A DNA stretch of 64,000 bases from Gordius sp. MW1. Lineage: Eukaryota; Nematomorpha; Gordioida; Gordea; Gordiidae. Within the stretch, counting starts at the first letter, position 1. Each line of letters begins with the position of its first letter. This document shows, in pieces, positions 12,601 through 64,000 of this stretch. Location: NCBI GenBank assembly GCA_964036665.1, contig OZ038526.1, positions 23,312,001 through 23,376,000 on the forward strand. Reading direction: 5' to 3'. A program made the position numbers and the translations under genes. The notes beneath the pieces were generated by a model. The model saw only the letters and a list, made by a program, of their open reading frames with translations, did no database searches and had not been told where the DNA came from.

Positions 12601-15600
12601 AAATTGACATCTAGTCTAAAAAAAACTCGGGCCTTCGGCCCTCGTGGGAAGGGGGAGAAGGGAAGGGGAGTAGGGGAAGGGAAGAGGGGAAGGGGGAACT
12701 CTTCTATACTCCGTATAAACGTAGCATATTTGCTATGCAATTTATGGGCGAGAAAGGTGGGAAGGGGCGAGAATGCCTATAGGGGGTATTAGATGCAAAA
12801 TAATTAGTTAATTAGTTATAGGCCCTTGTAGGGGAGGACATAGGGTAATTATCAATGTTAACCAATTCAAAAACGAAAAAAAATTTCGATTTATTTGGCC
12901 AATGGTCATTTTTTTATTGGTCAGTAGCCAGCGGACGGTCAAAAATTCATATTATCATTGGTATTAACATGAACAAATATTAATTTAATTTAAAAAAATT
13001 AAAAAAAAAAATTTGTCCACTCCCTGACTTGAACCCCACACCTCCAGTTCACAAGCCTGCGCTATAACCACTATACCATGCTGGCTTTAAAATAGTAGAA
13101 GTTATTATGTTATTTATATAGATGATGAAATAATAAAGTTATGTTTTATGTTTAGAAAATCAATATATTTCGTCGGTCAGTAGCCAGCGGACGGTCAAAA
13201 AGTCATATTATCAATGGTATTAACAAAAACAAAATATTAATTTAATGTAAAAAAAAAATTAAAAAAAAGTTTTTTTTAGTTTTAAAAAAGGGCTAAATTC
13301 TTAAACTACCAGCCCGATTCGCTCGAAACTTTACCCGTAGGTGCCCAGGGCGGCCGGGGGTAAAATAACCTTTTCAGATTCCTAAAATACCTTTTCATTT
13401 TAAAAATATCGGACATTTCCCTGCCACACGCGGTGTAATATCTATGACACGTAGAAAAATTTTACTAATTATATAAACTTACGCGCGCCATCTAATAAAG
13501 TACAATTCGTGTTTGAGTTTAATAGTAGATTCAATTTAATTAGAAATAACGGGCTATGCTTATACCTTTGAAGGAGGTTTCGAATTTTGTGTTAGTTTCT
13601 ATCGATATATTTTATCGTAAATTAGAATCTAATACCTATATTATTTTTTTAAATATTACTTTTTAGGTTTTCTATGAAATCACAATCTAATTAAATGAAA
13701 TATATTAACCCAATAAAAAAATATATATGCATTTATAAGGTTAAAAATATATATTACATAGTTGGCTGTCTGTTAGACCATCTATAATAAATTTTTAGGT
13801 TATATATAAAATTTGGCCAATGGTCATTTTTTTTCATTGGTAAGCAGCCAGGACACGGTAAAAGTGGTTATAAATTCATAAGTCAAAAAAAAACGAAAAA
13901 AAAAATTTTCGAATCACATTTTGGCCAATGGTCATTTTTTCCATCGGTCAGGAGCCAGCGGACGGCCAAAAAGTCATAATAGCAATGGTAGTAACAGGAA
14001 CAATCATAATAGTCAAAAAAAACGAAAAAATAAACTTGGATTCACATTTTGGCCAATGGTCATTTTTTTCCATTGGTCAGCAGCCAGCACACGGTAAAAG
14101 TGGATATAAATTCACAAGAGTAAAAAAAACGAAAAAAAAATTTTCGAATCACATTTTGGCCAATGGTCATTTTTTTCCATTGGTCAGCAGCCAGGACACA
14201 ATAAAAGTGGATATAAATTCATAATAGTCAAAAAAAAACGAAATAAAAGTCTTCGAATCACATTTTGGCCAATGGTCATTTTATTCCATTGGTCAGCAGC
14301 CAGCGGACGGCCAAAAAGTCATAATAGCAATGGTAGGAACAGGAACAATCATAATAGTCAAAAAAAACGAAAAAAATAATTTCGATTCACATTTTGGCCA
14401 ATGGTCATTTTTTTCCATCGGTCAGGAGCCAGCGGACGGCCAAAAAGTCATAATAGCAATGGTAGTAACAGGAACAATCATAATAGTCAAAAAAAAAAAC
14501 GAAAAAATAAACTCGGATTCACATTTTGGCCAATGGTCATTTTTTTCATTGGTCAGCAGCCAACGGACGGCCAAAAAGTCTTATTATCAATGATAGTAAC
14601 AAGAACAATCATAAAAGTCAAAAAAAACTCCGGGATTCTAACCCAAAAACTAGTTAAATTGCATAGCAATTAAAAGTAAACAACTTTTATTTATGTTTAT
14701 TATATAACATTGGTCAGCAGCCAGCGGACGGCCAAAAAGTCATAATAGCAATGGTAGAAACAGGAACAATCATAATAGTCAAAAAAAACGAAAAAAATCA
14801 TTTCGATTCACATTTTGGCCAATGGTCATTTTTTTCATTGGTCAGCAGCCAGCGGACGGCCAAAAATTCTTATTATCAATGATAGTAACAAGAACAATCA
14901 TAAGAGTCAAAAAAAACTCCGGGATTCCAACCCCAAAACTAGTTAAATTGCATAGCAATTAAAAAGTAAACAACTTTTATTTATGTTTATTTATAACTAG
15001 TTAAATTGCATAGCATTAAAAGTAAACAACTTTTATCTATATTTATTATATAACCAAAACTAGTTAAATTGCATAGCAATTAAAAGTAAACAACTTTTAT
15101 TTATGTTTATTATATAACTAGTTAAATTGCATAGCAATTAAAAGTAAACAACTTTTATTTATGTTTATTATATAATAGATAATTTAACAAATCTTATATA
15201 TAACACACCGAGAGAGATAGAGATGAGGGGTGGGGCACCTCTTATGCATTAATTCAAAAAATAACACAGCGAGGGAGATAGAGATGAGGGGTGGGGCACC
15301 TCTTTCTCATCCATTAAGTTAAAAAAAGCGATAACCTAATATACCCAATGCAAATAGATAGGGAGGGTAACGGACGACGGACGACGGACGACGGACGACG
15401 GACGGACACCAAAAAACGATCCCATAAATTGCATAGCAATTAATAATTGATCTATCTTATCGCAAATTTTTATGTTATATCATGCACTTGGGCACAAATT
15501 GTTGTACCTAATTAACAACCGAAAGGACCAACGATAAAAATCGATAATTGCTAACTTTAGTTTGAGGTTATTTCGCCAAAATGTCAATATTAGCTGTGTA

Positions 15601-30031: not shown

Positions 30032-31919
30032 AAACTCGGGCCTTCGGCCCTCGTGGGAAGGGGGAGAAGGGAAGGGAAGAGGGGAAGGGAAGGGGGGACG
30101 ACTCATCTGTACTTCGTATAAATGTATCATATTTGCTATGCAATTTATGGGCGAGAAAGGTGGGAAGGGGCGAGAATGCCTATAAGGGTGTATTAAATGC
30201 CTAATGATTAATTAATTATTTATATAAATTTTCCCTTATAGGCAAAATGTAATATAGGCAAAATGTAATATAGGCAAGGGTTAGGGTTAGATTTAGTGTT
30301 TGCATCTAGTTGCGTATTACATTAGTTTTTATGGCCTTTAGTGATTATGGGTCTAACAAACATTATATTATAAAACAACACAATGTTAAGAATTTGCAGA
30401 ATTGTTGGGAGAAATTTTTTGTTGAATTTGAACAATTTTTAATTAAAAAAATCAAAAATTTGGCCAATGGTCACTTTTTCTCTATTGGTCAGTACCAACA
30501 GATCCTCTATAAGTCAATTATAGCCAAAAAAACGGAAAAAAAAATTTTGATGCTCACTTTGGCCAATGGTCATTTTTTTCCATTGGTCAGCAGCCAGCAC
30601 ACGGTAAAAGTGGATATAAATTCATAAGAGTAAAAAAAAACGAAAAAAAAATTTTCGAATCACATTTTGGCCAATGGTCATTTTTTTCCATTGGTCAGCA
30701 GCCAGGACACGGTAAAAGTGGATATAAATTCATAATAGTCAAAAAAAAACGAAAAAAAAATTTTCGAATCACATTTTGGCCAATGGTCATTTTATTTCAT
30801 TGGTCAGCAGTCAGCGGACGGCCAAAAAGTCATAATAGCAATGTTAGGAACAGGAACAATCATAATAGTCAAAAAAAACGAAAAAAATAATTTCGATTCA
30901 CATTTTGGCCAATGGTCATTTTTTCCATCGGTCAGGAGCCAGCGGACGGCCAAAAAGTCATAATAGCAATGGTAGTAACAGGAACAATCATAATAGTCAA
31001 AAAAAAACGAAAAAATAAACTCGGATTCACATTATGGCCAATGGTCATTTTTTTCATTGGTCAGCAGCCAACGGACGGCCAAAAAGTCTTATTATCAATG
31101 ATAGTAACAAGAACAATCATAAGAGTCAAAAAAACTGGGATTTCAACCCAAAAACTAGTTAAATTGCATAGCAATTAAAAGTAAACAACTTTTATTTATG
31201 TTTATTATATAACATTGGTCAGCAGCCAGCGGACGGCCAAAAAGTCATAATAGCAATGGTAGAAACAGGAACAATCATAATAGTCAAAAAAAACACGAAA
31301 ATAATAATTTCGATTCACATTTTGGCCAATGGTCATTTTTTTCATTGGTCAGCAGCCAGCGGACGGCCAAAAATTCTTATTATCAATGATAGTAACAAGA
31401 ACAATCATAAGAGTCAAAAAAACTCCGGGATTCTAACCCCAAAACTAGTTAAATTGCATAGCAATTAAAAAGTAAACAAGTTTATTATATAACTAGTTAA
31501 ATCGCATAGCATTAAAAGTAAACAACTTTTATCTAAAAAACTAGTTAAATTGCATAGCAATTAAAAGTAAACAACTTTTATTTATGTTTATTATATAACT
31601 AGTTAAATTGCATAGCAATTAAAAGTAAACAACTTTTATTTATGTTTATTATATAATAGATAATTTAACAAATCTTATATATAACACACCGAGGGAGATA
31701 GAGATGAGGGGTAGGGCACCTCTTATGCATTAATTTAAAAAATAACACAGCGAGGGAGATAGAGATGAGGGGTGGGGCACCTCTTTCTCATGTATTAATT
31801 TAAAAAAGCGATAACCTAATATACCCAATGCAAATAGATAGGAGGGTAACGGACGGACAACGGACGGACGGACGGACGGACAACAAAAAACGAGCCCATA
31901 AATTGCATAGCAATTAATA
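30032..31919 (+). repeat. Composite tandem-module element, copy 3
   Basis: Closest relative of copy 1: same head hairpin, same block with the TTAGGG units, same block around 30340-30420, then a longer tandem array (30460-31430), ACTAGTTAAATTGCATAGCA units, two GAGGGGTGGGGCACC modules and GGAC repeats (31850-31883). The right end abuts a hAT transposase coding relic in mid-frame, so the element apparently inserted into or joined that gene. Confidence 0.8.
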
Positions 31920-37152: not shown

Positions 37153-38661
37153 CGAAAGACATAATATTATAATATTTTTGCGCAAAAAATGTACAAGATA
37201 TTTAGGATATGAATCTACAAGGATCAATTTAATATTTACAAAAGTTTATAGGCTTTAACTAGAAAAAATCAAGATTCAGAGAGGGGCGTTGTGTGATTTA
37301 TTGATTGAGAAGAGAGAGGATATAGTAGTAGTAATATATTATCCTATCGTTTACAAATTTATATAAGTTGAAATAGGGAAGGAGAACTTTTGGGCGATTA
37401 TACTTAATAAAATATAAGGAGTAACATTATTTAAGATTTAACTAATTTAACTAAAGCATAAATTGTTCCATGTTTTTCCTCTATGTTTGATTTATCACTT
37501 AGAGTTCTAATAAATTTGGCCGCCGGGGCCATACTTATTTTAAGTATTAACATTTTATCATGATATTTCTATGATGATACTCAGGATACTTTTATTATTT
37601 CATTCATTAAATTATATGTCCTCCTCCCAAAAGGGAGGACAAGAATAAATGGTCGAGGCGGTCAAAATGTATTTATTAAAATTCCGCAACAAAAATAATA
37701 ATCTGATCTATATCATAATCTTTAGATATATATATATGCGAACACAAGCGGTAGAATTCCTTTTTAGGGAAAGGTAGTAAGTAACATCGATGACTGTTTT
37801 TATTATCATAAGCGAGTAGCGTATAGGTTTATATTATTGACAAAAATCGATAAAGTTAAATATATTAAGAAGCGTAACATGCAAGTGGGAGGATAAACAA
37901 AAATCGATAAATTAGAAAGGGAAACACCACAGTTAAATACCACAAGTTCATTGAAAACATTTTGTAAATTTGTTATCTTGGTATATGCTAGAATATAAAG
38001 GAAGTAGGACTGTGTGGTATAGAAGAAAAAGGAATGGATTCACCAACAAAGTAATAACATCACCGACAGTACTAACAACCCCTTTAATACGAGGATGGCA
38101 CGACGCAACAAATCAACCGTAATGGTAAAAATAGAACAATCGAACTACAAATTTCATATCATCACAATAGGAATAACGCAATATAAAATAATACATTTAT
38201 AGAGATATTACAGAAACGTAATCACGATCTTTCAAACCTCAAGGGTATACAGTTTTAAAAGAAGGCATATACAACTTTAAATTTAATTATCTAAAACTTG
38301 AATTATGTTAAAATAATGAAGCAGATATTTTGTTTACCTCAAAAAACTCGATACGTATGTCAACCGTTTTACGGTATTTTTAAATTAGACCTTTGTTATC
38401 CTACTTTTTATTACTTGAACAGATTGCCCTTAATCAAACCCTACCAACGTTGCAAAACCTCTATATTTAAAAACTAGTCCTATTTCTAAATGCAATAAGT
38501 AAAACACTTAGACTATAAATCGCACAAAAGTTTTAAAGTTGGAATACTTCAAAAAATATAGTTACCAATTAGCGGTCACATACATTTACACATGATAAAA
38601 TTATTTTAATCTATACGCTCAAATCATAATATACATGAAACTAGAATGAAAGCGATAGTTA
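37153..38661. other. Region upstream of the JAK gene
   Basis: No coding signal seen. It should include the JAK promoter and 5' UTR; no specific promoter element could be supported in such AT-rich DNA. Confidence 0.4.
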
Positions 38662-51288
<12,627 letters not shown>

Positions 51289-55285: not shown

Positions 55286-55568
55286 ACTAAAGCAAATATA
55301 TATTTTATAAAATAGGATTCAAATAAACTCACAGCGTACATTATATAGTTTCCAAGCTTCCCCTTTTTTTGCCAATTATATTTTCACATGAATTCCAATC
55401 TTATTCCAATATTTTAGTATATTCATTGAATCTTACACGCCATTTTTCTGCTTAAATGCCAAAACTGATGAAACTAGTGTATCGTGCTGTCTTATTTTTT
55501 TTAGGGGGGGGGGGGGGGGGTGGGGGGTAAATGATAATTTTTTTAACCTTAGTAATAACTATATCACC

Positions 55569-57990
55569 GTTATGTGCGCGTATTCCCCAAATTGGGTGTT
55601 CGGAATCATAGAAAGACATATTCTCGATTCACTGGAAAAGGAATAGGACAGGAAGAAAGGCTAATCATTGGGGCAGATTTTAACGCTCACGTCGGGAAAG
55701 ATCGCCTCGGGTATGAACGCAATCATGGAGGCTATGGGCTTAGTCTGAAGAACAGAGAAGGGGAAAAACTTCTCCAAGTATCCCAAGCATATCACATGGC
55801 GATCGTTAACACCTATTTTCAAAAGCGTGAAGATCATATTGTGACCTATAGAAGTGGGAAGCATTTTAGTCAAATTGACTATTTGCTTTTACGGCGAAAG
55901 GACTTATGGAGTATCAAGGATTGCAAAGTTATCGGGAGAAGAAATCGCCAGGCAACATCGTCCCCTTGTTATGGACCTTGACAAAAGAGTATTTCCAGAA
56001 AGAAGAAAGGTATATGAACCTCGAATCGATACGAAAGGCTAAAGGATACGTCGACGAACGAAGAATACCATCTAAAGGCCTCCTCACTCTTGGGTGCAAG
56101 GAAGCTGCAAAGGGACGTAGACGGCGATTGGGAGACGCTATCTAAGGGCATTAAGGAAACAGCGATTCATGTTCTAGGACAGATTAAAGGAGGCAAAGCT
56201 ATGGATGGAACTAAGGTGGTGGGATCAATCGGTTAGGGATTTCATCAAAAGAAAGAAAAATCTATATAGACGATGGAATAAATCAAAAATGTTGGAGGAT
56301 TATCAAGAGTATAGGGACGCAAAGAGGGCCGTTGCAATAGCGAAGAATGCCGCCTACACTGAGATGGCAAACAAACAGGATCATAAAGGGGGCGATAGGC
56401 TTGTGTACAAATTGGCCAAGATAAGGGAGATGAAAAGTCGCGATGTCGGAGTTCTTAAAATAATCAAAAACGAGAAGGGTCAAACCTTATTCAAGCCGAA
56501 AGAAGTGATGGAAAGGTGGAAAGGATATTTTAAGAAACTTATGAATATTGCAAATGACAAGGATTCCCTTCCCAAAATTGAGCCAAATATAAGTATGGTC
56601 GAACTCTTTCATGAGGATGAAGTTAGGACACAAATGAACAAGATGCAAAAAGAAAAAGCAAATGGCCCAGATGGAATACCTGAAGCATTGCTCGGATGTC
56701 GTGAAGAAGGAGTCATCAGACGAACCTTCTTAACAAGACATTGGTAGAAGAGCGAATTCCTAATCAATGGAGAGCAAGCACGTTTATTCCCTTATTTAAA
56801 GGCAAAGGAGACCCTCAGGACTGTGGCAATTACAGAGGTATCAAGCTAACTTGCCACTCCTTGAAGCTTATGGAAAGGATCTTAGTAACAAGGCGGAAAA
56901 ACGGGGTGGATATATCGGCTAATCAATTTGGACTTGTGGCCGGCAAATCCACAATCGACCCAATCTTCGCACTAAGACAAATTATGGATAAGTATGGTGA
57001 AAGGAAAGACCTACATATAGTTTTTATCGAGTCGGAGAAAGCTTATGACACGGTCCCCCGCGATTTAATATGGTGGTGCCTGAGGAAACAAAAATATCCC
57101 TGACGCATATATACGGCTTATAAAAAATATTTATGAAGCCTCAAACTCTTGCGTCAGGACAACAATTGGAGACTCTAAACCTTTTCAGGTTAATATTGGA
57201 TTACATCAAGGCTCTGCTTTAAGTCCCTTTATATTTAATATAATTATAGATAAGATAAAGAGGGACATTCATGAGCCATTGCCATATGCCGGTGACATAG
57301 TACTATGCGAGTAAACAAGGGAGAAAGTACTCGAAGAAGCTGAAAAGTGGTCAAAGTGCTTAGTTGGATATGGGTTAAAGGTCAACGATCGAAAAACGGT
57401 ATACATGGAAATGAACGGTAAAGGCACCCCATCTCTGTATGACCATCTAAAGAACCCAAAAGTAGACAGGTTTACTTACCTCTGCTCGATGCTACATCAA
57501 GAGGGAGGTTGCGCAACGGAAGTCAATGTCCAGATCCAAAAAGGATTAAATGGCGAAGTATATCCGGTGTAATATGCGACAAGAAAATGCCAATATGGTT
57601 AAAGTGAAGTGCAAAGCTTACAAATCCATCGTAAGGCCGGTGTTACTCTATGGAAGTGAAACATGGGCATTAAACACCACGGAAGGAAAGCTATTACAAG
57701 CCACAGAGATGAGAATGATACGGTGGGGCTTGGGATATACTAAGCTCGACCATATGACGAATGACTTTCTCATGACATAAATGGGTATTCAACCTATGGC
57801 GGACATGATTAACGAAAATCGGCTAAGGTGGTATGGGCATATACTAAGAAGGGACACGGATGACGTAAATCGAAAAGTACTGGACATGGAGGTACCGGGA
57901 AAGAGAGGAAGAGGACGACCCCGTGTCACGTGGAAAGGGCAAGTCGATAAAGTTATAAAGAAGAAGAAGAAGAAGAGTAATAACTATATC
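55569..57990 (+). pseudogene. RTE-like LINE, 5' truncated, near-continuous coding
   Basis: Apurinic-type endonuclease end (LIIGADFNAHVGKDRLG, QIDYLLLRR, then RQHRPLVMDL), a linker (WWDQSVRDFIKRKKNLYRRW), reverse transcriptase with IPLFKGKGDPQDCGNYRGIK, FGLVAGKSTIDPIFALRQIM and EKAYDTVPRDLIWWCLR, GLHQGSALSPFIFNIIID, and an AGD variant where the catalytic YADD is expected (about 57284-57297), then VLLYGSETWALNTTEGK and GKRGRGRPRVTWKGQVDKV. Several frameshifts and stops. It ends early in AAG repeats (57957-57975) and lacks the last 20-odd residues kept at 42988-43497. Confidence 0.92.
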
Positions 57991-58036: not shown

Positions 58037-58473
58037 TCCCTTCTACTTAAGTGTTAAATGCTACAACTTTTTCTAAAAGTAAAATTATTTAAAAGCAATA
58101 TTGAATAATTCTTAAAACATTAATGAGGGAGAATATAAAATTTTAAACATGATCAATTATTTGATTTATTAAATTCAATTGTCCAAGTATAAAAAGTGTG
58201 AAAATGCTTTACATAAAACGAAACTAAAAAGTAAAACAAGTAGACGGTTTGATTTTTAAACTATTTGAGATCTGTATTTGTAAAACAAATGCATAATATA
58301 ATAATTGTAAATTAAATAAATTTATTTTAAAAATTAATAATTACTTTTATTTGTCAACAGGCAGTAATTTAATAAATAAAAATCAATTTTTGTCCGCAAC
58401 CGTCAAATCTAAATTTTACCAAAACTTAAAGATTACATAAATATTTATGTAAAAATAGTTATGATATATAAAC
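58037..58473. other. AT-rich stretch left of the micro-exon array
   Basis: No further micro-exon with convincing borders was found here; it may be intron or 3' flank of the micro-exon gene. Confidence 0.35.
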
Positions 58474-61400
58474 CTAGTATGGAGGAGATGCCTGAAGCTA
58501 TTATTTAAAAAATTATAATATTTTAAAATTTATGTTAGGAAATTATTAAGTTATTTTTAAACAATTTTTTACTATTTGAGGGTAGTATGTCTAAAAATAC
58601 AGAAAGAATTTAAGGTTGTTATTTAAATGCTAGTAATAAATTAAAAGATGCTCAGTATAATGTGCCCAGTATTTTTGTACTACTCCCAGTTAAAATTTCA
58701 AAATTGCACAGTAAATTAACTAATATGCTCAGATTCACATTTAAAAATGCTCAGTAAAAAATGGTTAGAAATTTAAATTATTTATAATTTTTGATAGATT
58801 TTCGTTAAAAAAATTAATTTAGCCTTTAAATGATAATTATGAAAATTGTTTGCAAACAGACCAAAAGACATTAGGACTTTTTTATAGTCGTATACTCAGA
58901 ATTAAAGTGAACACAGGTATTACTTAAGACTTATAAAATGGACATTGCTGGTTAATATCTCGCTCCAATACTTATTTTATTTTGAAATTAAATATCAGGT
59001 AATGAGCAAAAAGTTACTGAAAAAACGGGAATAAATAGCTGAGCAAATTAAATACTGAACAAATGAATTAAACTGAACATTAAATATTCTACTGAGCAAT
59101 GAGTAAATGTACTAAGCAAAATAATTTGTTCTCATTAAAAAAATATAATATTTTATGATTTATTGAATGGATTCATTTATTTATTTTTAAATAATTTTTA
59201 CCAAATGGTATGTCGGAACGAAATTCTAAAAATACAGAAATAATTATATTTATTTATTTTAGAATTAAATTTTTTCTGGAGCTGGTTGTGGTTTTTGAGA
59301 TAAATTTAAATACTAATTTTTGTTTAATTAAATTCATTATTCAATCTAAATTTACAAACTTATTTTTAATTTTTGTAATGGATTTAATACAATTAAAATA
59401 CATAATGTTGAAAGTAATGTAAGGACTCAAATAATATAAAAGTTAAAAGTATTTAAGTATTTAATTCTAAGTGGCCTAAACGCCGGCTGGGACTTCACTG
59501 CAGTGGATATATTTGCCAAATCTAACGCCTCTCCCGACCTCATCTCTTATACTGAGAGAAAGATAGTGGAAAAATACAAATACCTCAGCAATATTATTTT
59601 TGTACGAGTAGTAGCCACAACCCTCGGTAATCTAGGTCCCGAGGGCAGACAATTCCCTAAACAAACAACAAAATTTATAACCTCCATCACACACGATCCC
59701 AAAGAATGATTCTACATCAAGCAGAAAATCACCATGGAAATTGTAAAATCTAATACAATCTCAATCCATGGCTCGATGCCAGCTTATTAATTTAATATGT
59801 TTTAGCATATAACAATACATATTTATTCGGAAATAAACTTCTATCGATTAAAAAAAATTGAATTTTTAAAAGTAATTTAATATTTATTCATTTTTTATTT
59901 AAATATAATTTTGAAAAATAGGATATAACATATTCATCAGATTGAATCGTTTAACATAAAATTAAAAAAAAAATTTGGATAAAATGGGACAATAGCTTAA
60001 ATGAAAAAAAATGAATTTTATAAAATAATAAATTAAATTTTGTTTAAATTTAAATTAATTATCGTGCAATAGGATAAATTGGCGCTAAAAAATTTAAATT
60101 TTAAATTCGAAATAAATTTATATTTATATATTTTAGTTTTTTATTTTTTAAATATGTTTTTTTGTCATATAAAACACATTTCAATTGATTTTAAAGGCAT
60201 TTAAGTATTTTGTACGAATAAATTATATTTTATAAAATTAATATTTGTTAATTTCTCTATAATATTTAAGTCGATCGGTTTTTCTTTTATACAAAACAAA
60301 ATATTAAATCGTAAAAATAGATTTTGAATTTTACCTTGTCTTGGCTGATATGGACGTGGAGCAACAGCTGTTTAAAAAAATATTTAAATAAAAAATAGTT
60401 GAAATATATAGGGTGTAATAGAAATTTTACTTGCTATTGGATAAGGTATGAATGGTACTAGTTTTATATTTAAAATATTAAAAAACATAATTTAATTTAT
60501 ATTTTTGATTAAATTTATTTTTAAAAACCAAGATCTTATTAAAATTTTATTTTAAAGATAAAATTTATAAGAATGTATACCTGGTCTAGGCTGAGGTAGA
60601 TAAAATGCTGTCGCTAACATAATAATCCTAAAGATTAATATTTTTTGAAATTTTTCCTTTAGAAAATTAGATTTTAAATAATTTTTCGAGGAAAATAAAA
60701 ATAAAAAATAATAAAAACTGAACAATAAATATTCTACTGAGCAATGAGTAAATGTACTAAGCAAAATAATTTGTTCTCATTAAAAAAATATAATATTTTA
60801 TAATTTATTGAATGTTCATTTATTTATTTTTAAATAATTTTTACCATATGGTATGTCGGAACGAAATTCTAAAAATACAGAAATAATTATATTTATTTAT
60901 TTTAGAATTAAATTTTTTCTGGAGCTGGTTGTGGTTTTTGAGATAAATTTAAATACTAATTTTTGTTTAATTAAATTCATTATTCAATCTAAATTTACAA
61001 ACTTATTTTTAATTTTTGTAATGGATTTAATACAATTAAAATACATAATGTTGAAAGTAATGTAAGGACTCAAATAATATAAAAGTTAAAAGTATTTAAG
61101 TATTTAATTCTAAGTGGCCTAAACGCCGGCTGGGACTTCACTGCAGTGGATATATTTGCCAAATCTAACGCCTCTCCCGACCTCATCTCTTATACTGAGA
61201 GAAAGATAGTGGAAAAATACAAATACCTCAGCAATATTATTTTTGTACGAGTAGTAGCCACAACCCTCGGTAATCTAGGTCCCGAGGGCAGACAATTCCT
61301 TAAACAAACATCAAAATTTATAACCTCCATCACACACGATCCCAAAGAATGATTCTACATCAAGCAGAAAATCACCATGGAAATTGTAAAATCTAATACA

Positions 61401-63898
61401 ATCTCAATCCATGGCTCGATGCCAGCTTATTAATTTAATATGTTTTAGCATATAACAATACATATTTATTCGGAAATAAATTTCTATCTATTAAAAAAAA
61501 ATTGAATTTTTAAAAGTAATTTAATATTTATTCATTTTTTATTTAAATATAATTTTGAAAAATAGGATATAACATATTCATCAGATTGATTCGTTTAACA
61601 AAAAATTAAAAAAAAATTTGGATAAAATGGGACAATAGCTTAAATGTAAAAAAATGAATTTTATAAAATAATAAATTAAATTTTGTTTAAATTTAAATTA
61701 ATTATCTTACGTGCAATAGGATAAATTGGCGCTAAAAAATTTAAATTTTAAATTTGAAATAAATTTATATTTATATATTTTAGTTTTTTATTTTTTAAAT
61801 ATGTTTTTTTGTCATATAAAACACATTTCAATTGATTTTAAAGGCATTTAAGTATTTTGTACGAATAAATTATATTTTATAAAATTAATATTTGTTAATT
61901 TCTCTATAATATTTAAGTCGATCGGTTTTTCTTTTATACAAAACAAAATATTAAATCGTAAAAATAGATTTTGAATTTTACCTTGTCTTGGCTGATATGG
62001 ACGTGGAGCAACAGCTGTTTAAAAAAATATTTAAATAAAAAATATTTGAAATATATAGGGTGTAATAGAAATTTTACTTGCTATTGGATAAGGTATGAAT
62101 GGTACTAATTTTATATTTAAAATATTAAAAAACATAATTTAATTTATATTTTTGATTAAATTTATTTTTAAAAACCAAAATCTTATTAAAATTTTAAAGA
62201 TAAAATTTATAAGAATGTATACCTGGTCTAGGCTGAGGTAGATAAAATGCTGTCGCTAACATAATAATCCTAAAGATTAATATTTTTTGAAATTTTTCCT
62301 TTAGAAAATTAGATTTTAAATAATTTTTCGAGGAAAATAAAAATAAAAAATAATAAAAACTGAACATTAAATATTCTACTGAGCAATGAGTAAATGTACT
62401 AAGCAAAATAATTTGTTCTCATTAAAAAAATATAATATTTTATAATTTATTGAATGTTCATTTATTTATTTTTAAATAATTTTTACCATATGGTATGTCG
62501 GAACGAAATTCTAAAAATACAGAAATAATTATATTTATTTATTTTAGAATTAAATTTTTTCTGGAGCTGGTTGTGGTTTTTGAGATAAATTTAAATACTA
62601 ATTTTTGTTTAATTAAATTCATTATTCAATCTAAATTTACAAACTTATTTTTAATTTTTGTAATGGATTTAATACAATTAAAATACATAATGTTGAAAGT
62701 AATGTAAGGACTCAAATAATATAAAAGTTAAAAGTATTTAAGTATTTAATTCTAAGTGGCCTAAACGCCGGCTGGGACTACACTGCAGTGGATATATTTG
62801 CCAAATCTAACGCCTCTCCCGACCTCATCTCTTATACTGAGAGAAAGATAGTGGAAAAATACAAATACCTCAGCAATATTATTTTTGTACGAGTAGTAGC
62901 CACAACCCTCGGTAATCTAGGTCCCGAGGGCAGACAATTCCTTAAACAAACAACAAAATTTATAACCTCCATCACACACGATCCCAAAGAATGATTCTAC
63001 ATCAAGCAGAAAATCACCATGGAAATTGTAAAATCTAATACAATCTCAATCCATGGCTCGATGCCAGCTTATTAATTTAATATGTTTTAGCATATAACAA
63101 TACATATTTATTCGGAAATAAACTTCTATCGATTAAAAAAAATTGAATTTTTAAAAGTAATTTAATATTTATTCATTTTTTATTTAAATATAATTTTGAA
63201 AAATAGGATATAACATATTCATCAGATTGAATCGTTTAACATAAAATTAAAAAAAAAATTTGGATAAAATGGGACAATAGCTTAAATGAAAAAAAATGAA
63301 TTTTATAAAATAATAAATTAAATTTTGTTTAAATTTAAATTAATTATCGTGCAATAGGATAAATTGGCGCTAAAAAATTTAAATTTTAAATTCGAAATAA
63401 ATTTATATTTATATATTTTAGTTTTTTATTTTTTAAATATGTTTTTTTGTCATATAAAACACATTTCAATTGATTTTAAAGGCATTTAAGTATTTTGTAC
63501 GAATAAATTATATTTTATAAAATTAATATTTGTTAATTTCTCTATAATATTTAAGTCGATCGGTTTTTCTTTTGTACAAAACAAAATATTAAATCGTAAA
63601 AATAGATTTTGAATTTTACCTTGTCTTGGCTGATATGGACGTGGAGCAACAGCTGTTTAAAAAAATATTTAAATAAAAAATAGTTGAAATATATAGGGTA
63701 TAATAGAAATTTTACTTGCTATTGGATAAGGTATGAATGGTACTAGTTTTATATTTAAAATATTAAAAAACATAATTTAATTTATATTTTTGATTAAATT
63801 TATTTTTAAAAACCAAGATCTTATTAAAATTTTATTTTAAAGATAAAATTTATAAGAATGTATACCTGGTCTAGGCTGAGGTAGATAAAATGCTGTCG
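58474..63898 (-). CDS. Tandem micro-exon gene (proline-rich peptide), partial
   Basis: On the minus strand each about 1.64-kb unit has micro-exons in the order A (33 nt), B (27), C (33), D (21), F (24). Unit 3: 63898-63866, 63742-63716, 63652-63620, 63369-63349, 62510-62487. Unit 2: 62255-62223, 62104-62078, 62014-61982, 61731-61711, 60868-60845. Unit 1: 60613-60581, 60457-60431, 60367-60335, 60084-60064, 59225-59202. Two diverged ones follow: 58590-58573 (18 nt) and 58497-58474 (24 nt). All are preceded by AG and followed by GT except D in units 1 and 3. All start with two bases, continue in whole codons and end with one base, so any combination stays in frame. Peptides: A TAFYLPQPRP, B PFIPYPIA, C VAPRPYQPRQ, D PIYPIA, F FRSDIPY. 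No leader exon or 3' end is seen. The structure matches micro-exon genes known for secreted proteins; function is unknown. Confidence 0.72.
59069..60711. repeat. 1.64-kb tandem unit 1
   Basis: First complete unit; the left border is where similarity to units 2 and 3 begins (ACTGAACATTAAATATTCTA). Period to unit 2 is 1,643 bp. It carries micro-exons A, B, C, a D without donor, and F (with TTT in place of TAT in its last full codon). Confidence 0.93.
59482..59790 (+). pseudogene. Reverse-transcriptase C-terminal fragment inside unit 1
   Basis: Plus-strand reading gives VDIFAKSNASPDL, then a stretch with VVATTLGNLGPEGRQF, a stop after HDPKE, and KQKITMEIVKSNTISIHGSM. This resembles the conserved tail of some invertebrate non-LTR retrotransposon proteins (ETLG-x-GP ... 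Q+-S-AIQ+GN-ASI-GT). It is antisense to the micro-exons, between D and F. Same fragment with one or two substitutions at 61125-61433 and 62767-63075. Confidence 0.6.
60712..62353. repeat. 1.64-kb tandem unit 2
   Basis: Period to unit 3 is 1,642 bp. It is the only unit in which micro-exon D has an intact donor (GTAAGAT), because it keeps four bases that units 1 and 3 lack. Otherwise nearly identical to its neighbours. Confidence 0.93.
61125..61433 (+). pseudogene. Reverse-transcriptase C-terminal fragment inside unit 2
   Basis: Copy of the fragment at 59482-59790 amplified with the unit; Leu replaces Pro and Ser replaces Thr at two places in RQFPKQTTK. Confidence 0.6.
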
Positions 63899-64000
63899 CT
63901 AACATAATAATCCTAAGATTAATATTTTTTGAAATTTTTCCTTTAGAAAATTAGATTATAAATAATTTTTCGAGGAAAATAAAAATAAAAAATAATAAGA
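62354..64000. repeat. 1.64-kb tandem unit 3, reaching the window edge
   Basis: Complete or nearly complete copy. The sequence at the edge is the end of the unit, and whether a fourth follows cannot be seen. D lacks its donor as in unit 1. Confidence 0.9.
62767..63075 (+). pseudogene. Reverse-transcriptase C-terminal fragment inside unit 3
   Basis: Third copy; differs from unit 1 by the Pro-to-Leu change in RQFPKQ. The internal stop after HDPKE is shared by all three. Confidence 0.6.

Follow-up and report, generated by a model that had tools for sequence, protein, structure and literature searches.

We analysed a 64,000-nucleotide (nt) window of a hairworm genome assembly (211.8 Mb in 12 contigs), which covers positions 23312001-23376000 of contig C8 (OZ038526.1), and found a tandem array of short candidate exons on the minus strand at its right end. 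This locus very probably represents the 3' portion of a nuclear hairworm gene whose predicted secreted product is encoded almost wholly by symmetrical phase-1 micro-exons. Both the micro-exon reading and the frame-neutral duplication of a cassette of exons are supported by the sequence.

The cassette array and the exons upstream of it

The array consists of three tandem units of 1642, 1642 and 1643 nt on the minus strand. With gap columns excluded, identity is 99.57% between units 1 and 3, 99.08% between units 1 and 2, and 99.14% between units 2 and 3. Every unit contains five segments, A (33 nt), B (27 nt), C (33 nt), D (21 nt) and F (24 nt), each preceded by AG, free of stop codons and in a common phase (2 bases, whole codons and 1 base, i.e. 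phase-1), just as an initial annotation of the window had described them. The initial annotation had also placed AG and GT at all borders with one exception. We found both signals at A, B, C and F in 3/3 units, but at D the donor GT is present in only one of the three copies (61731-61711) and is absent at 63369-63349 and 60084-60064. Exon D seems to be on the way to being lost. All 25 joins among A, B, C, D and F are free of stop codons, which agrees with the earlier claim that junction codons stay open, including that from D into the next A. The claim that whole cassettes were duplicated without breaking the frame was borne out at sequence level by the three units and their phase-matched exons. 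In window coordinates, the features of the array are:

62357..63998, minus strand: cassette unit 1 (5'-most on the minus strand), 1642 nt
60715..62356, minus strand: cassette unit 2, 1642 nt
59072..60714, minus strand: cassette unit 3, 1643 nt
63866..63898, minus strand: exon A of unit 1, 33 nt, TAFYLPQPRP; identical in 62223-62255 and 60581-60613
63716..63742, minus strand: exon B of unit 1, 27 nt, PFIPYPIA; identical in 62078-62104 and 60431-60457
63620..63652, minus strand: exon C of unit 1, 33 nt, VAPRPYQPRQ; identical in 61982-62014 and 60335-60367
61711..61731, minus strand: exon D of unit 2, 21 nt, PIYPIA, the sole copy with a GT donor; the other copies, 63349-63369 and 60064-60084, are without GT
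62487..62510, minus strand: exon F of unit 1, 24 nt, FRSDIPY; identical in 60845-60868, and FRSDIPF in 59202-59225
58573..58590, minus strand: F', a putative older, diverged copy of F, 18 nt, ILPSN, with AG and GT and with homologous flanks
58445..58491, minus strand: candidate last coding segment, either an 18-nt micro-exon (58474-58491) or, if unspliced onward, a terminal exon ISSILGLYIITIFT-stop
59471..59858, minus strand: 388-nt fragment of a high-copy genomic repeat, lying between D and F in each unit

The local alignment of F with F' scored 77, compared with a maximum of 48 for 500 opposite-strand pieces of the locus. The 388-nt repeat fragment was in place before the units were duplicated; 39 of the 44 matches listed for it are copies elsewhere in the genome at 88-94% identity, the best 40 of 1089 candidates having been scored.

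The cassette forms the 3' part of a minus-strand gene that starts about 3.2 kb past the right edge of the window. Here, a TATA-like box is followed by an ATG at C8:23379240. The first exon, E1, is ATG AAA AAT TCC AAA ATT ATT AAA (24 nt) followed by GT, the second, E2, has 55 nt, and joined they read MKNSKIIK-IIAGMLFIGSYVFA-NEMD. They encode what looks like a typical signal peptide, MKNSKIIK plus IIAGMLFIGSYVFANEMD, spread over two exons and called by eye and hydropathy. The product is predicted to be secreted, and the signal-peptide exon that the initial annotation had expected to the right is present past the window edge as E1 and E2.

Fourteen further exons of the same phase (E3-E12, E13b and E14-E16) lead into exon A of unit 1. 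Thirteen of these 14 are 21-39 nt long and one is 129 nt, and all but two of the 18 introns between E1 and C measure 61-245 nt. Among the 20 internal exon types listed, 16 have at most 36 nt and all 20 are multiples of three (3n), a length that the scan itself demanded; independent support for their symmetry comes from the paralogues described below, in which exon lengths are unchanged or changed by 3n. Internal exons from E3 onward start at codon position 2 and end at codon position 1. The reading frame would survive the copying, loss and skipping of exons because these internal exons share one phase: 203 of the 210 forward exon joins are stop-free, and the seven with a stop all begin at E3.

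We propose that this common phase would allow exons to be copied, lost or skipped without a frame shift, and that unequal exchange or replication slippage within introns may lengthen a proline-rich, probably unstructured C-terminal tail. The signal peptide would stay nearly constant, preserving secretion, while the tail lengthens and varies. Varied splicing of the cassette exons could further make this one secreted protein differ in length and sequence between transcripts.

Paralogues on contig C6 and the possibility of chance

Searches of the genome at the DNA and translated levels, with the best 40 candidates scored, gave convincing relatives among the matches listed only on contig C6:

C6 ~17621980 down to 17613700, minus strand: near-complete paralogue, C6(-)
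C6 17607042-17609970, plus strand: 5'-truncated paralogue, C6(+)
C6 17600319-17600669: remnant of a further copy

The region of promoter and signal peptide has a single relative, in C6(-), at 86% identity, and the translated search with E11 found three places, which are the same three loci (C8, C6(-) and C6(+)). Most upstream C8 exons had been listed before the 5' exons of C6(-) were read. Over E1-E12, all 11 acceptors are conserved in C6(-), as are 11 of the 12 donors. In 469 aligned exon bases there is one insertion or deletion (indel), of 3 nt and within the signal peptide, whereas 1151 aligned intron bases contain 30 indels, 21 of them non-3n. The intron rate predicts 12.2 exon indels against the one observed (P ~6e-5). 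Exons are 86.6% and introns 79.7% identical, and the signal-peptide exons show no mismatch, only the 3-nt indel, which makes the C6(-) peptide one residue longer. Between C6(-) and C6(+), E5-E11 contain a single exon indel, of 1 nt, which breaks E10 in C6(+); 10.0 would be expected, and the introns have 15 indels. Joined E1-E11 are open in C8 and C6(-).

For the cassette, pairwise alignment of C8 with C6(+) misplaces A and C, and a four-way alignment was used instead. It showed that A keeps its 33 nt and AG/GT in C6(-) and has 27 nt without GT in C6(+). B, deleted in C6(-), keeps 27 nt and AG/GT in C6(+) with two mismatches. C has 27 nt in both C6 copies, an in-frame difference of 6 nt, with AG/GT kept. 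The acceptor of D is absent in C6(-), and D is mostly deleted in C6(+). These kept splice sites and 3n lengths support A, B and C as exons.

The gene and its near-complete paralogue also carry tandem copies at several scales, from a single exon to a two-exon and a five-exon cassette. In C8, there are two copies of the E13 region (291 nt aligned, 90%) and three of the five-exon cassette; in C6(-), the E15 region occurs twice (256 nt aligned, 80%). The 3' end of C6(-) holds a different, proline-containing cassette array (C6:17613683-17618477), interspersed with (TAAA)n runs, in which successive TVLYEPP exons are 837-853 nt apart. This 24-nt exon has five copies with AG and GT. A second exon of 21 nt (TILKPN or IILKPN) was found in two copies by script in the one stretch scanned and in others by eye, and a third candidate exon has GT in one of six copies. 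A 661-nt part of the C6(-) cassette unit matches six places at 87-100% identity. The two paralogues have thus amplified different cassettes. The unit border in C8 reads ...GTTCAGTTT, followed by TTATTATTTT, and fits an exchange at a short T-rich match, although the exact route is inferred.

Could the array be a recent tandem duplication of non-coding DNA, with an exon-like pattern that arose by chance in AT-rich sequence? Agreement between the units alone is no evidence against this, because they are recent copies. We therefore scanned for candidate exons by one fixed rule; since the rule required multiples of three, a 3n length is no independent evidence. The middle unit plus 200 nt gave eight candidates on the minus and three on the plus strand, while 400 dinucleotide shuffles gave a mean of 2.06 and a maximum of 7. 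The eight are A, C, D, F and four unclaimed segments; B was missed, as the rule required a stronger acceptor tract. In the middle unit, two or more prolines are found in A, C and D on the minus strand and in no plus-strand candidate, while shuffles average 0.03 such candidates. The 5' region past the window gave 16 candidates (shuffle mean 3.0, maximum 8, 200 shuffles), of which 11 are among the 14 proposed exons E3-E16 and five are not; its plus strand gave three, a number that 51 of 200 shuffles reach.

Dinucleotide shuffles are lenient toward the claim, and real DNA is the harsher control. We scanned 432 overlapping 3.2-kb windows on both strands, 393 of which are background. The latter had a mean of 6.0 candidates and a maximum of 16, reached by one window with a GC content of 0.32. 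In the 43 background windows with GC of at most 0.27, the mean was 3.8 and the maximum 10, whereas the locus reaches 16 at a GC of 0.17. For two-proline candidates the best count in the array was five, which at least one background window (GC 0.37) also had, compared with a maximum of three in low-GC background. Candidate counting as sole proof was dropped, as real background at higher GC gives similar counts. The pattern by itself is suggestive and no proof.

The paralogues weigh more here. Phase-matched candidate exons are common in real background DNA, and the indel comparison of the cassette, given below, does not discriminate, both of which would suit an exon-free array. Against it, the upstream exons exclude indels and keep their splice sites, splice sites and 3n lengths are likewise conserved for A, B and C, and a putative signal peptide was found where one had been predicted. 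Conservation in the paralogues settles the upstream exons, as far as sequence comparison goes, and supports A, B and C, and we consider chance a highly improbable explanation.

Constraint on the gene, its relatives in architecture and its possible role

Several results weigh against a functional micro-exon gene. In the cassette, exon indels are as frequent as expected from introns (2 vs 2.6 for C6(-), 2 vs 2.2 for C6(+)), a test that does not discriminate, and our confidence in the micro-exon gene is slightly lower because of this result. Compared with C6(-), cassette exons are 79.2% and introns 66.7% identical; the figures for C6(+), in which A and C are misaligned, are 67.3% and 68.1%. The ratio of nonsynonymous to synonymous substitution (dN/dS) is 0.78 between C8 and C6(-) (E1-E11) and 0.9 between C8 and C6(+), and mismatches in E3-E11 fall on the three codon positions 12, 21 and 19 times; constraint at the protein level is therefore weak, and the protein is loosely held except for the signal peptide. 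Between C6(-) and C6(+), exons (90.1%) and introns (90.7%) are equal in identity, and dN/dS is 2.7, a value that rests on 2.5 synonymous changes with one copy broken and is not read as selection. That copy, C6(+), is 5'-truncated, carries a 1-nt indel at E10 and lacks GT at both E10 and A. Donors are also missing from D in two of the three units, from E12 in C6(-) and from E13a, the second copy of E13. A counterpart of F was not found on C6, leaving the diverged local copy F' as its only support, and the segment 58445-58491 has no support from the paralogues. At the 3' end, either F or this segment could be the last exon. Lastly, one of the 393 background windows equals the locus in candidate count.

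Part of this evidence would also suit a decaying gene, i.e. a micro-exon gene that used to function, with a 3' cassette that now drifts and has been amplified neutrally in tandem. The missing donors of D and E13a, the dN/dS of 0.78, the broken C6(+) copy and cassette exons as indel-prone as introns are what decay would leave. It would not readily account for signal-peptide exons free of mismatches between C8 and C6(-), for upstream exons nearly free of indels, or for A, B, C and F with AG, GT and an open frame in all three C8 units. We regard decay as unlikely.

The preferred reading, a micro-exon gene for a secreted protein, was compared with two known systems. Schistosome micro-exon genes (MEGs) are described as having a 5' signal peptide and a coding body mostly of micro-exons below 36 bp, mostly symmetrical, with secreted products (PMC4671649). 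In the account of MEGs 26-32, 26 of 33 micro-exons are symmetrical, and in MEGs 26 and 30 the signal peptide runs on into the first micro-exon (PMC4671649). The same source describes two long flanking exons, the 5' one with most or all of the signal peptide (PMC4671649). The hairworm gene resembles MEGs in its putative 5' signal peptide, its mostly short symmetrical micro-exons and its predicted secreted product in a parasite. It differs in the phylum, in the tandem copying of multi-exon cassettes and, as far as the coding part goes, in a first exon of only 24 nt and a signal peptide split over two short exons.

Bicycle genes of aphids, phylloxerids and coccids are described as having numerous small internal exons, nearly all of which begin at codon position 2 (PMC9168663), and internal exons of the hairworm gene begin at the same position. 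The aphid megacycle gene is reported to have more than 100 micro-exons in repeating units with identically placed introns, shared across aphids (PMC9168663). Its repeats are presumably old, whereas the hairworm units are about 99% identical.

The Cys-Tyr-Cys (CYC) motif characterises bicycle genes. It is absent from the exon peptides of the hairworm gene, and this absence, together with the host phylum Nematomorpha, rules out a bicycle gene. By architecture, we classify the locus as a putative micro-exon secreted gene; its likeness to MEGs and bicycle genes is architectural. The organism itself is neither a schistosome nor an aphid, the groups in which the initial annotation saw parallels. No hairworm micro-exon gene came up among the titles listed in searches of an open-licence literature library.

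The role of the product may be either structural or directed at a host. A proline-rich repeat protein of the cuticle, the egg string or a larval gland glue, in which repeat number tunes a material property, would accept the same gene model. It would fit the signal peptide, the proline-rich repeat tail and the growth in repeat number; two N-terminal pieces, on the other side, gave no hit in a Pfam search. We take such a structural use as a real possibility, somewhat short of an even chance. The most likely use may be a fast-changing secretion, from a gland or the body surface, that comes into contact with the arthropod host or the surroundings, a suggestion that we make weakly. Such a role is slightly favoured over cuticle, eggs or glue only because the closest architectural parallels are genes of that kind.

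That hairworms steer their hosts is known, and few candidate secreted genes appear to have been described for them. A gene family with phase-interchangeable exons would give a concrete handle on such genes. Standard gene finders may miss micro-exon genes. More tentatively, hairworms may have evolved a micro-exon system independently, in which frame-neutral cassettes were amplified repeatedly, and separately, in paralogues and yield splice-variable proline-rich secreted proteins, possibly released into the arthropod host; we hold this broader proposal to be rather doubtful as a whole. If true, it would be a further convergent origin beside those of schistosomes and aphid relatives, and would bring another phylum into the group of parasites and plant feeders whose secreted proteins are encoded by micro-exons. 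With units about 99% identical, cassette duplication would here be seen close to its occurrence.

The host and other features of the genome

The host is a hairworm (Nematomorpha), as judged from the mitochondrial contig C12, whose coding palindromes and gene order were considered together. Its genes were named from their protein sequences; cox1 is also supported by Pfam PF00115. Perfect inverted repeats have arms of 108 nt in nad1, 95 in atp6, 60 in nad5 and 81 in nad2. In freshwater hairworms, mitochondrial protein genes, above all atp6, nad1 and nad5, were described as containing long perfect inverted repeats (PMC6649704). For other organisms, the same source mentions shorter or unconfirmed palindromes, for example up to 60 bp in a gastrotrich (PMC6649704). 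In order of open reading frames, C12 has cox1-cox2-atp6-cox3-nad3-nad4L-nad4-nad5 on one strand and nad1 and nad2 on the opposite strand. The order given for Nematomorpha is cox1-cox2-(atp8)-atp6-cox3-nad3 and nad4L-nad4-nad5, with nad2 on the other strand (PMC10380579). Both features are needed together, because palindromes are also mentioned for a few other organisms. An aphid or adelgid host, suggested by the architectural parallels, was rejected on reading the mitochondrial contig, and a bryozoan and a copepod were likewise considered and rejected.

Arrays on C6, C2 and C4 that match the upstream gene (at least 264 matches) were considered as members of a bigger family and rejected. A 1.6-kb piece of the C6 array contains no candidate exons and proved to be an AT-rich satellite; those on C2 and C4 were rejected by analogy with it only. 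The C6 satellite (C6:7031076-7061743, piece read 7057001-7058600) has units of about 60 nt and matches the upstream introns by composition only, and the spacing of its matches, 4506 nt, suggests a higher-order period.

Elsewhere in the window we observed the following features:

38659-50228, plus strand: JAK-like gene whose FERM and tyrosine kinase domains lie on different exons, which fits an animal nuclear genome
33151-36243, minus strand: retroelement remains with aspartyl protease, zinc knuckle and integrase
55559-57103, plus strand: remains resembling a long interspersed nuclear element, seen by eye; the scanned piece 56178-56744 gave no Pfam hit
43640-43831: perfect (TAT)64 run
1100-1608, 14004-15182 and 30513-31807: repeated satellite-bearing element with units of about 97-129 nt and 58 nt, also seen by eye between the two C6 paralogues

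Nuclear copies of the mitochondrial cox1 gene are many (C8:2829490-2830827, C5:673008-673997, C4:356383-379815 and 1458719-1486890, C1:25290196-25293598, and others). One copy, on C8, is full-length, and several on C4 form mirrored pairs.

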